The notes beneath the pieces are model-generated. The model did no database searches and was not told the DNA's origin. It was given only the letters and a program-made list of their open reading frames with translations. Both the position numbers and the translations under genes were made by a program. From Nitrospirota bacterium (lineage in GTDB: Bacteria; Nitrospirota; Leptospirillia; Leptospirillales; Leptospirillaceae), in NCBI GenBank assembly GCA_021801345.1, contig JAJYYA010000040.1, positions 1 to 35,498 on the forward strand: DNA of 35,498 bases, in the 5' to 3' direction. Shown here piece after piece: positions 14,372 through 18,916 of this stretch. Numbering within the stretch: position 1 is the first letter of the stretch; the number at the start of each line of letters is the position of its first letter.

Positions 14372-15061
14372 TTAGCTCACGTTGACCGCAAAGGTGGGGT
14401 TCCTTTTGGCGAAGGCTTCGGCTTCGTCGAAGGTCCTGCGGATGGTCTCGAGATTCTTCTGGAGAAGCATTTCTTTCTTGGCAAATTTTTTCTTGATGGC
14501 CTCGTCGAGGGTGGCCGTGCCGCCCGAAGCGACATACTTCTTTCCGAACCGGTCCTGGAGGGCCTTGTCGAGGCCATCCATCGTCACGGCATGGGTCAGA
14601 CCGGCCAGAGCCCCGAGCATGCCCATGTTCGTCGCAAGTTCGGTCCCGGCGATCTCGAGCGCGATCTTTGTGGCGGGAACATAATAGACCGTCACATTCT
14701 TTTTGGCGAGGTCGCTTCTCTCCTCTTCGGTCAGAAGCTCGATGTCGTCATTGATAATGACGAGACCCCCATCCTTGATGCCGGAATAGAAGGGCATCGT
14801 GTAGCTCTTTCCCATGGTGATGACCTGCGGATGATAGACCATGACCACATGCGGAAAGACCAGCTCGCCCCGGTCGAAGATCTTCTCCTCCCCGATCCGC
14901 ACATAGGACTCGGCGGGAGCCATGCGCTTTTCAGCGCCGAAAAAGGGGTTGGAGATGGAAAACTTTCCCTCGTGGGAGGCGGCCATCGCCATGAGGTGGG
15001 CGGAGGTGACAACCCCTTGGCCGCCCAGCCCCGACATACGGATATTGATACGTTTTTTCAT
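14372..15061 (-). CDS. porG: Pyruvate:ferredoxin oxidoreductase gamma subunit
   Basis: The 229-aa protein begins MKKRINIRMSGLGGQGVVTS, the glycine-rich opening of the gamma domain of 2-oxoacid:ferredoxin oxidoreductases, and continues with the typical FFGAEKRMAPAESYVRIGEE. In this enzyme class the gamma subunit supports coenzyme A binding. The C-terminal lysine-rich helices (AIKKKFAKKEMLLQKN) complete the normal length. It starts 15 bases after the beta-subunit stop. The substrate could also be another 2-oxoacid; the four-subunit set with a separate small ferredoxin favours pyruvate or 2-oxobutyrate over indolepyruvate. Confidence 0.9.
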   Translation of the reverse strand: MKKRINIRMSGLGGQGVVTSAHLMAMAASHEGKFSISNPFFGAEKRMAPAESYVRIGEEKIFDRGELVFPHVVMVYHPQVITMGKSYTMPFYSGIKDGGLVIINDDIELLTEEERSDLAKKNVTVYYVPATKIALEIAGTELATNMGMLGALAGLTHAVTMDGLDKALQDRFGKKYVASGGTATLDEAIKKKFAKKEMLLQKNLETIRRTFDEAEAFAKRNPTFAVNVS

Positions 15062-15076
15062 CGGATCTCCCGCTCG

Positions 15077-15961
15077 TTAGGTTGTGGTCGCAATCTTTTC
15101 GGCCTTCTTCTTTTCGGCCAAGCCGTCGAGGAAGGACTGCGCCTCGGGAGAGATGAACTCCCGGAACTTGAAGCGTTCTCCGGGCGCCTCCGAGGTACGC
15201 ATCTCCTGGAGACCCTCCATGCTCTGCTTGCCGATTTCGAGAATGCAGGGGGTGTAGATCTGGATGTAGGTGGGGCCCACCTCGCGGGCGATCAGAACCG
15301 CCTGCTTGATGACCTTTTCCACGAGGCTCGGCTTGCTGGCCGTCATGATGGCGACATAGTCGCACCCGGACTCCCGGGCAATCTCAGGCAGACGCACCTT
15401 TTCGAATCGCTTTCCGACCGGGGCCATCTTCGCGAGGAAGCCTTTCTGCATGAGGCCGGACTCCTGTCCTCCGGTATTGGCATACAGCTCGTTATCGAAG
15501 CAAATGGTGGTAAACCGTTCCTTCCTGAACCAGGACTGGAGGGTCATGTCGAGACCGATGTCGACGGTCGCCCCGTCCCCGGCGAGGACGATGACGTCCT
15601 TGACCCGGTCGGGGAAACGGACGGCCAGCGCCCTCTTGAGACCGGTCGCGATCGCGTTCTGGTTTCCGAAAAGAGAGTGGATGTTGTGGACCGCGATCAT
15701 CGGAAAGACAAGGCTCGTGCAGCCCGTCGAGCCGACCATGACCGTATCTTCCGGATTGGGGATAGAGGCCATGATATGGCGAAAGGCGATGGACTCCGGA
15801 CATCCCGCGCAGAGAGAGTGCTCGGCGATAAGCTCTGTCGCTGTTCCAAAGTCTTTCCAGCCGCGGTTGGGGGTTTCATAGGTTCCGCTCTCCACAAGAT
15901 CGAGATAGTCTTGCGGCATGATATCGACAAATTCCTTGTTGATCTGGATTCGGTTAGCCAT
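15077..15961 (-). CDS. porB: Pyruvate:ferredoxin oxidoreductase beta subunit (TPP-binding)
   Basis: The 294-aa subunit binds thiamine diphosphate and the proximal [4Fe-4S] cluster. It shows the CAGCPES motif (C-x2-C) near residue 52, the TPP/Mg motif VLAGDGATVDIGLDMTLQ followed by FDNELYANTGGQESGL, and a late cysteine in YTPCILEIG, as expected for the four cluster ligands together with STGC. The ATG (15959-15961) lies within the end of the alpha gene (8-base overlap), indicating translational coupling. An upstream in-frame start at 16015 would deepen the overlap without family support. The reaction is pyruvate + CoA + oxidised ferredoxin to acetyl-CoA + CO2, reversible in autotrophs using the reductive TCA cycle. 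Confidence 0.94.
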   Translation of the reverse strand: MANRIQINKEFVDIMPQDYLDLVESGTYETPNRGWKDFGTATELIAEHSLCAGCPESIAFRHIMASIPNPEDTVMVGSTGCTSLVFPMIAVHNIHSLFGNQNAIATGLKRALAVRFPDRVKDVIVLAGDGATVDIGLDMTLQSWFRKERFTTICFDNELYANTGGQESGLMQKGFLAKMAPVGKRFEKVRLPEIARESGCDYVAIMTASKPSLVEKVIKQAVLIAREVGPTYIQIYTPCILEIGKQSMEGLQEMRTSEAPGERFKFREFISPEAQSFLDGLAEKKKAEKIATTT

Positions 15962-17174
15962 GGACGAGCTCCTTGTTCCGGCGATGTGCCATATGTTTTT
16001 CGACTTCCTCGACAATGATCTCCGGAGGCATGGTCATTCCTCCGGCCACGTGGGGACCCGCCACCACCCTGTGGTTGCGGTCAATGGTGGATTTGATTTC
16101 CCGGGCGAGCCATCCCGCCACGTTGAACTCCGGAACGAAGATATGCTTGGCATGTTCGGTCGCTCTGCGGATTTCCTCCGTCGGGAAGGGACGGAGCGTT
16201 TTGATCTTGACAAGGCCGACACGCTCTCCCTTGTCCCGGAAAAGGCGGATGGCTTCACGGGCCTGGGAGACGGCCGTTCCCGAGGCGACAAGCATGATCT
16301 CCGCATCGCCGTTCTCCACCTCGATCAGTCCGTCAAGGAGGGGAATGGTATGTTTCCGGGAGCGCTCGATGGCGGCCCGGATTTCGAGCTGCCAGCTGGC
16401 ATGGGTCATATAGCTGATGTAGTTCGACTTCATGACGAAGGGATCGCGCATCATCCGGACCGGGGGAACCTCCATGTCCATACAGACCACCGGGCTCCGG
16501 TAGGGGTCGTAGTGGGGCAGAGCCTGATCTTCCGGCGTCATCATGACCATGTCCTTGGTGTGGGTGACGAAGAAGCCGTCGCAGATGACGCCGATCGGAA
16601 GGTGCACCTCTGGCTGTTCGGCCACATAATAACCCTTGAGCATGAAATCGAAGAGGTCCTGCGCTGACTCTGCATGCCAGAGAAGCATGCCGGTCTCGAG
16701 CATGAAGGCGATCTCAAGCGTGTCGGGCTGAATGGTCAGGGGAGAGTTGATGCCCCGGACAGTAAAGACGACCTGGATGGGAAGACGACTCCCCGCCCAC
16801 ATGGGAAAGTTCTCGAAGGCACGGAGCGTTCCCGGACCTGCCGTCGTCGTGAAGACCCGGGCTCCTCCGAAGGCTGCGCCGGCACACTGTCCCATGACGG
16901 CAAACTCGGACTCGCCGCGCATGTAATCCCCGACATATCCCTCGGCGTAAAGCTCGCCGACAAGGGACGAGGCCTCCGACTGCGGCGTAATGGGGTAGGC
17001 CACAGAAAAGTCGACGCTTGAACGTCTGACGGCCTCGCGGATAACCTCGGAGCCGGTCAGGAAGTAAGGGGTGCGTGTTGAATTCAGAAAAAGTTCTTGC
17101 GGGTCCGTAATGAGCTGGCCCTTCTTGTTGCGCTGGCCAATCTGGGGAACCCTGGAATCCGTTTGCGTCGCCAT
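15954..17174 (-). CDS. porA: Pyruvate:ferredoxin oxidoreductase alpha subunit
   Basis: The 406-aa protein has the pyrimidine-binding domain of the family (AYPITPQSEASSLVGELYAE, then YMRGESEFAVMGQCAGAAF and FTTTAGPGTLRAFE), followed by the transketolase C-terminal-like domain (LLDGLIEVENGDAEIMLVAS, VGLVKIKTLRPFP). It is first in the operon alpha-beta-gamma-delta. The ATG at 17172-17174 was chosen because GAGGAG lies 7 bases upstream; the frame could extend to 17246 but that part runs through a tandem repeat in the leader. In Leptospirillum-type bacteria this enzyme is central to CO2 fixation. Duplicate por/oor operons are known in such genomes, so its exact substrate should be treated as probable pyruvate. 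Confidence 0.93.
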   Translation of the reverse strand: MATQTDSRVPQIGQRNKKGQLITDPQELFLNSTRTPYFLTGSEVIREAVRRSSVDFSVAYPITPQSEASSLVGELYAEGYVGDYMRGESEFAVMGQCAGAAFGGARVFTTTAGPGTLRAFENFPMWAGSRLPIQVVFTVRGINSPLTIQPDTLEIAFMLETGMLLWHAESAQDLFDFMLKGYYVAEQPEVHLPIGVICDGFFVTHTKDMVMMTPEDQALPHYDPYRSPVVCMDMEVPPVRMMRDPFVMKSNYISYMTHASWQLEIRAAIERSRKHTIPLLDGLIEVENGDAEIMLVASGTAVSQAREAIRLFRDKGERVGLVKIKTLRPFPTEEIRRATEHAKHIFVPEFNVAGWLAREIKSTIDRNHRVVAGPHVAGGMTMPPEIIVEEVEKHMAHRRNKELVHG

Positions 17175-17473
17175 GACTACACTCCTCGATTTAGATACGG
17201 TCAGACCTTGAACGTCCGAAGTCGCCGGTATGTCATTTGCCGGCATGTCATTTGAAGGATAGCCTGACCGAAAAGTGTCTTCTTCCGAACGTTCCGGTCA
17301 GAAGGGACGGCTTTCGGCGGCCGTCTATCCGAACAGACCCGACCCGAAAACAGGGGCAAGATCCGACTTTCCGATAGCCACTCACACGAGGGAAATTGAA
17401 AAAATGGAATTCACCATTTTTCAGGCAGGGCACCGAAGGCTCAGCCGTCAGAGTTTTATGATGAGGTCCGTCA
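17175..17473 (-). promoter_or_regulatory. Long structured leader of the por operon
   Basis: No gene is visible between 17175 and 17567. From the promoter at 17474-17503 the por mRNA would carry about 290 untranslated bases. Visible structure: an AT-rich hairpin with 8-base arms (17400-17407 and 17414-17421), which on the minus strand ends in TTTTTT; a GACGGC/GCCGTC stem (17306-17311 and 17320-17325); and a CTGACCG/CGGTCAG pair (17264-17270 and 17295-17301). Two tandem 15-base copies, gccggtatgtcattt and gccggcatgtcattt, occur at 17224-17238 and 17239-17253, about 50 bases before the start codon. I do not recognise a known riboswitch class. An attenuator or protein-binding leader is an inference. 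The part 17504-17567 holds a CCGGTC/GACCGG pair (17528-17533 and 17553-17558), possibly the end of the DUF1841 transcript. Confidence 0.5.
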
Positions 17474-17503
17474 ATTTTAAATTCCGAAGGCCGGTCAAGT
17501 CAA
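17474..17503 (-). promoter_or_regulatory. Sigma70-type promoter of the por operon
   Basis: On the minus strand TTGACT (17498-17503) is followed after 18 bases by TAAAAT (17474-17479). Both boxes differ from consensus at one position. Start of transcription would be near 17467. Confidence 0.6.
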
Positions 17504-17567: not shown

Positions 17568-17972
17568 CTACAGGAGGGAGAGGCTCCTAGCATAGAGAGA
17601 CTCGTCGAAGGAGTCATTCTTCCGAACCGATTCGAAGTAGAGACTTCCGTAGCATCCCATCATCCGGTGAAGGGCCTCATGCGGCTCCTCTCCCCTCTCG
17701 ACAAGATGGAGGTAGGCCTTCTTTGCCTGGGCCGGGACTCCCTGCCGGATCTGGCGGCCGACGACGAGGTGAAGCGCCACGTGAACGAGGGGGTTGACCT
17801 TCGTCTCGCCAACTTCAAGCGGACGGGACGGATCGACAGACGGATCATTCCACAGGGAGTCGAACTCCGGGTGCATCGCAAGGATCTCGACCAACTCCCG
17901 ATCCTCTCCGGAGCGATCTCCTTCCCGGGCGACGAGACGCACATGTTCGAGAATATCTTCGTCAAACAGCAT
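17568..17972 (-). CDS. DUF1841 family protein
   Basis: The 134-aa protein matches the DUF1841 pattern that I know from proteobacterial genomes: a helical N-terminus, an ILAMHPEFDSLWNDP stretch, NPLVHVALHLVVGRQIRQG in the middle, and EEPHEALHRMMGCYGSLYFE near the end with its conserved His and Glu. No function is established for the family. The ATG at 17970-17972 has GAGGAG about 9 bases upstream. It follows the 94-aa unknown gene by 57 bases and is probably the last gene of a three-gene unit with the J-domain protein. Confidence 0.75.
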   Translation of the reverse strand: MLFDEDILEHVRLVAREGDRSGEDRELVEILAMHPEFDSLWNDPSVDPSRPLEVGETKVNPLVHVALHLVVGRQIRQGVPAQAKKAYLHLVERGEEPHEALHRMMGCYGSLYFESVRKNDSFDESLYARSLSLL

Positions 17973-18337: not shown

Positions 18338-18916
18338 TCAAAGCTTCTCCCCGAACGCTCTCTTGAGAAAGGCGTAGGACTCGAGGATCTCCCTCATCCG
18401 TCCTTCTCCGCTCCGGTCCCCGGCGCGCATATCGGGGTGGTGCTCCTTGAGAAGGGTCCGCACCTTCCTGCGGATCTCGTCCAAAGACGCCGTTTCGGGA
18501 ACTCCGAGCGTCCGGCAGTGCTTTCCGAGAAGCTCCCGACCCGTTCGCCCATTGAAATCCCCTCCCTCGGTCGCCCCCCGGAAAAACTTTTCCCAGGGAA
18601 GCGCTGCCCGCTTTCGACGCGGACGATTCCGGAGAAGGCTGTCGAGCTCCTCGAAGCGGTCCTCTAGAAACTCCGACTTCCGGGCCACCCTCGCCAGCGA
18701 AGGGCGCGAGCCGTCCCGGGTGATCTCTTCGAGAAGTCCGGAAAAAAGCCGGTCGAGATCGGAAAACTTCTCCTCCATCTCGCCTCCGCCCCCACCTCCC
18801 CAGTCCAGCTCAAGCGACCGCTCGAGACAGAGCCAGGACGAGTCGCGGCAGAGGCAGACCATCTTCCCGATATGCGCGGCAAGCTCTTTTTTGATCTCCT
18901 CGGGCGACTTCCCCAA
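18338..18916 (-). CDS. J-domain protein with C-terminal J domain
   Basis: The 192-aa protein carries its J domain at the C-terminus, residues about 134-190: the opening HCRTLGVPETASLDEIRRKV, the loop LLKEHHPDMRAGD with HPD, and the last helix MREILESYAFLKRAF. The first 130 residues are helical and charged with a glycine run (residues about 40-45) and a basic stretch NRPRRKRAALPW. A J domain stimulates a DnaK-type Hsp70; the N-terminal part probably selects the client. The start is TTG at 18914-18916 with GGAGGG about 8 bases upstream; the next ATG (residue 19) is a weaker option. It is the first gene of a unit with the 94-aa and DUF1841 proteins, divergent from yceI. Confidence 0.78.
   Translation of the reverse strand: MGKSPEEIKKELAAHIGKMVCLCRDSSWLCLERSLELDWGGGGGGEMEEKFSDLDRLFSGLLEEITRDGSRPSLARVARKSEFLEDRFEELDSLLRNRPRRKRAALPWEKFFRGATEGGDFNGRTGRELLGKHCRTLGVPETASLDEIRRKVRTLLKEHHPDMRAGDRSGEGRMREILESYAFLKRAFGEKL

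Follow-up and report, generated by a model that had tools for sequence, protein, structure and literature searches.

The por operon and its setting

A genome of the Nitrospirota contains an operon for a 2-oxoacid:ferredoxin oxidoreductase that is preceded by an untranslated leader of about 290 nucleotides, and the question is what this leader is for. To our knowledge, hardly anything has been established about the control of this oxygen-sensitive, probably carbon-fixing enzyme in acidophilic iron oxidisers. A leader this constrained marks a likely site of por control, and its coordinates allow exact deletions to be defined. The reading that we prefer, to which we would assign a probability of about one half, is that it is a lineage-specific cis-regulatory leader of porABG, which probably acts after transcription has started by attenuation or by translation control.

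The window, i.e., the whole stretch of DNA that was analysed (35,498 bases), is contig C22 of a 2.6-Mb genome, G000. Three genes on its minus strand encode the alpha, beta and gamma subunits: porA (15954-17174), porB (15077-15949) and porC/G (14372-15061). PorA has the Pfam domains POR_N and PFOR_II. The top NCBIfam matches of the subunits are of the pyruvate type, that of the alpha subunit being PorA, under the equivalog cut-off. Only the gamma subunit passes its curated cut-off (TIGR02175, a subfamily model). A pyruvate-type enzyme is therefore likely from these matches, although not proven, since both PorA and PorB fall under their cut-offs. A second alpha-subunit homologue (50% identity) is encoded on contig C46 of the same genome.

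A codirectional DUF1841 gene (17568-17972, minus strand) lies upstream of porA, an arrangement present in all 20 of the family loci compared, the window included. Upstream of the DUF1841 gene is a gene (18338-18916, minus strand) whose 192-residue product carries a DnaJ domain at its C-terminus.

The collection holds 14 genomes of the genus, the window's own included, and they form two clades: the window's clade with six species (clade 1) and a sister clade with the other eight (clade 2). The named relatives are uncultured Nitrospirae known from metagenome-assembled genomes, and the other genera of the family include a Leptospirillum sp. Leptospirillum is an iron-oxidiser. The PorA of the sister species, L061, is 98% identical to that of the window.

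A conserved promoter about 290 nucleotides upstream of porA

The first-pass annotation had placed a good promoter about 300 bases ahead of porA, and both a consensus scan and the relatives bear this out. The site is of the sigma-70 type, TTGACT-18-TAAAAT (17474-17503, minus strand; 10 of 12 consensus matches), and it is the sole sigma-70-like site that the scan found between 16500 and 18000, where shuffled sequences give 0.3. The promoter and the initial transcribed bases, GACGGACC (17472-17465), are conserved together. The two in combination (TTGACTT..TAAAATTGACGGACC) occur exactly once in 12 of the 14 genus genomes; the pattern searched was TTGACTTN{13,19}TWRAATTKACRGACC, and a control pattern gave 0 matches. 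The remaining two genomes have the same promoter with small differences (TAAACT in L061 and TTAAAATCAACAGACC in L071). Three genomes from other genera of the family have a related promoter, TTGACTTGA..TTATATTT followed by TAGACC, nearer to porA (-193 to -220). In the 13 uninterrupted leaders of the genus, the distance from the start of the -35 element to the ATG ranges from 305 to about 451 nucleotides.

There is thus good support for transcription of the por operon from this conserved sigma-70-type site, which lies about 290 nucleotides upstream of porA. Transcription would start near 17467, as judged from the promoter, and the untranslated leader would then extend over 17175-17467 (minus strand).

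The paralogous 2-oxoacid:ferredoxin oxidoreductase operon (L048; contig C46 of G000, 20507 onward) has a conserved promoter of its own, TTGACTTG, located 192-323 nucleotides before the start codon in the 10 genus genomes examined.

The leader does not appear to be coding

The porA start at 17174 is common to the relatives, together with a Shine-Dalgarno sequence, GAGGAG (17182-17187, minus strand), that lies 7 nucleotides before the ATG and is conserved in clade 1. An upstream in-frame ATG at 17246 was considered as the start of an N-terminally extended PorA and was rejected because the sister L061 has in-frame stops there.

We consider it very improbable that a small peptide or an independent small RNA is encoded in the leader. 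Every frame of the 16 leaders does contain open stretches (19-119 codons), a finding of little weight in GC-rich DNA, and the best-conserved block of the clade-2 leaders opens with a start-codon-like triplet. However, that block, on reading, ends at differing stops in different species, and in-frame stops and frame-breaking indels among the relatives leave no conserved reading frame, as would be expected of a non-coding leader.

A 13-mer (12 of 13 positions identical) is present both inside porA (17017-17029) and in the leader beside the ribosome site (17207-17219); this may be chance.

The leader is under purifying selection

Constraint was evaluated in seven species pairs by comparing the leader, minus the promoter and ribosome site, with fourfold sites of porA and the DUF1841 gene and with the spacer that precedes the promoter. 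Between the window and L061 the leader is identical at 228 of 254 positions (0.90), as against 169 of 212 fourfold sites in porA (0.80), 49 of 68 in the DUF1841 gene (0.72) and 30 of 59 spacer positions (0.51). The leader exceeds the fourfold sites in all seven pairs (p from 1e-7 to 0.05), which share species and so are not independent. In the weakest pair, L063-L064, the values are 0.67 for the leader versus 0.64 and 0.49; in the pair L069-L070 the difference between leader and spacer is not significant (p 0.17). At the deeper distance between the window and L062, leader identity is 0.51, so the leader turns over fast.

That the leader is simply a long 5' untranslated region, maintained only because it stabilises the transcript and helps ribosomes to load, with no condition-dependent regulation, is an unlikely explanation, and the paralogous operon bears on it from both sides. 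Its leader is also long, and in three of five species pairs it evolves like fourfold sites, while two of the five are constrained (p 3e-4 and 5e-3). For the same window-L061 pair, however, the paralog leader has an identity of 0.71, equal to its own fourfold sites (0.69), and is thus clearly less conserved than the por leader. Because por leader identity is above that of fourfold sites, the upstream spacer and the paralog leader, we conclude from these comparisons that the por leader is under purifying selection, and evolution has probably kept it for the control of gene expression.

The conservation comes in blocks, with peaks right after the promoter and close to the start codon. Such a distribution would also be expected if the conserved bases were DNA sites to which at least one transcription factor binds downstream of the promoter, with any RNA fold being incidental. 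Short words point the same way, although they were not taken as proof: TTTCGG, for example, is present in 11 of 12 leaders, compared to at most seven in shuffles that ignore kinship. However, we saw no operator-like inverted repeat common to the clades, and the constraint covers most of about 290 nucleotides, which is long for an operator. We regard DNA sites as a possible explanation, though a doubtful one.

Structure in the window's clade

The T-run hairpin of the first-pass annotation is present in the window at 17400-17421 (minus strand), about +47 to +68 of the transcript, with perfect arms of 8 bp (-7.2 kcal/mol); no inverted repeat of 8 bp with five T at its end arose in 5000 shuffles. 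All six clade-1 leaders have an attenuator-like hairpin at the matching place (-7.2, -9.3, -7.4, -7.4, -12.5 and -10.0 kcal/mol), and U-rich sequence follows its 3' arm or lies inside it; the alignment of the window with L061 has a compensatory change, U-A to G-C. The other eight species have no such hairpin at the matching place, and so one mechanism cannot serve the whole genus. A custom terminator-like scan called the hairpin in four of the six leaders and missed those of the window and L063; a standard terminator scan also left the window's hairpin uncalled. The hairpin would therefore be weak as a terminator in the window. No mutually exclusive antiterminator was recognised by eye in the predicted folds. 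In the window's clade, the hairpin could cause pausing or partial premature termination about 50-70 nucleotides into the transcript, and local hairpins between it and the Shine-Dalgarno sequence could tune translation or RNA stability.

The leader had also been described as structured; strong structure was not borne out for the fold as a whole. The 302-nucleotide window leader folds at -100.8, whereas shuffled versions give -91.9 +/- 5.2 (z -1.7) and 8 of 100 of them fold as well, i.e., it is ordinary for its composition, a result that an ordinary untranslated region would also give. The clade-1 alignment as a whole has a consensus energy of -16 with an unfavourable covariation term, and in windowed shuffles one window is strong (z -4.2, four sequences) while the others range from z +0.7 to -1.6. 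When the window fold was imposed on L061, 14 pairs were changed, of which five were kept and nine broken, compared to 11.8 expected (p 0.15). Most comparisons gave no significant avoidance of pair-breaking substitutions, and substitutions that do not preserve pairing are what binding sites in DNA would predict.

Two tandem 15-base copies near the start codon are indeed present (17224-17253, minus strand; 14 of 15 positions identical), and none of 5000 mononucleotide shuffles yields such a tandem. However, the pair is private to the window species: L061 has a single copy, and the tandem is absent from all 15 other leaders tested. The tandem as a conserved operator was accordingly rejected. Each copy supplies a 3' arm (17226-17229 or 17241-17244) that, as read from the sequence, could pair with CGGU at 17267-17270, so that the window has two alternative 3' arms for this stem. 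A local stem of CGGY and a partner near the 15-mer region could, by reading, form in all six clade-1 leaders, and in the clade-1 consensus fold a U-A pair of this stem is replaced by C-G in two rows.

Structure in the sister clade

The clade-2 set consists of seven full leaders (L066-L070, L111 and L071) and the uninterrupted part of the L065 leader. A closing helix (P1) and two hairpins (P3 and P4) can be drawn. P1 and P3 were examined together in seven sequences, without L071: 93.7% of cells are paired and 12 of 21 pairs are invariant; covariation is no better than in shuffles (273 of 500), because these helices hardly vary. For P4 (eight sequences), 84.6% of cells are paired, a value reached by 12 of 500 shuffles, and the covariation score is 0.264 (21 of 500 shuffles); four pairs have double changes, which is not significant (206 of 500). 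With six to eight sequences per clade, which are species representatives from assemblies that are in many cases incomplete, the power of these covariation tests is low.

The clade-2 consensus fold (six sequences, without L071 and L065) gave z values from -1.3 to -2.9 against column shuffles in five 150-column windows, next to controls of -3.1 and -3.6 in two antisense windows and -2.8 in a porA coding window. Together these results give modest support to an RNA structure in the clade-2 leader. Among relatives, then, structure is conserved to some degree within clades, and clades 1 and 2 have no recognisable leader structure in common.

Known RNAs and comparable systems

A known RNA family was rejected. 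Rfam gave no family in the window at gathering score except a distant tRNA, and nothing credible at relaxed thresholds, in agreement with the earlier statement that no known riboswitch class is present. Among the papers listed, titles and abstract openings gave nothing on a por leader, and searches of plasmids and viral contigs gave no match and no relative, respectively. A covariance model built from six training sequences of the clade-2 hairpin P4 and its conserved tail was confident only at por leaders of clade 2, namely those of the six training species and a weak one in the genome of L065 (26 bits), and nothing at the clade-1 por leaders. A multi-copy element was also rejected, as the promoter is unique in each genome and the model is confident only in por leaders. 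The next match of the model, in G000 (contig C30, 90832-90904), lies outside any por locus and is weak (24 bits, with a rough E value of 6e-4).

Comparison with known systems gives partial likenesses. Like transcription-attenuation leaders, the por leader is long and, in the six clade-1 species, has a U-tract hairpin early in the transcript; it differs in having no identified antiterminator, leader peptide or ligand domain, and its hairpin is AT-rich in the window and absent in clade 2. Like riboswitches and other cis-regulatory RNAs in Rfam, it is a single structured-looking leader ahead of a metabolic operon, but it has no Rfam match, is found with confidence before no other genes, and its structure is modestly supported. 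Finally, the window genome has csrA and the por leader contains GGA words, as in CsrA-controlled leaders, but in the alignments, as read, the GGA positions are conserved neither between clades nor across the genus.

The first-pass annotation had suggested a new cis-acting RNA or a protein-binding region. A cis-acting region is a fair reading because the promoter and the selected leader are well supported by the relatives; a new RNA is only a candidate, given the private repeat, the ordinary fold, the p value of 0.15 and the lack of structure common to the clades. We think it improbable that the leader is an undescribed regulatory RNA, which would sense a metabolite, the redox state or an RNA-binding protein to set the level of pyruvate:ferredoxin oxidoreductase, with an architecture specific to each clade (an attenuator hairpin in one, a closed multi-helix domain plus P4 in the other). 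By its sequence and that of its relatives, the leader is a real, selected and lineage-specific regulatory leader, for which the promoter and the constraint are established and RNA-class status is that of a candidate. As such a lineage-restricted cis-regulatory region, it would act post-initiation, through attenuation or translational control, perhaps in response to some signal.

A natural disruption of the leader

In one clade-2 genome (G008, contig C47), the por leader is split by a repeat-type insertion of about 320 nucleotides (L065:2591-2900), which explains why the -35 element begins about 657 nucleotides from the ATG there. A 98% copy of the insertion is present elsewhere in the genome and its end pieces recur often (20 matching places); from the look of its end, it may be an IS605-type remnant. 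Both porA and the promoter are intact despite the insertion, and this would imply that the distal part of the leader is either dispensable or has been adapted in this species.
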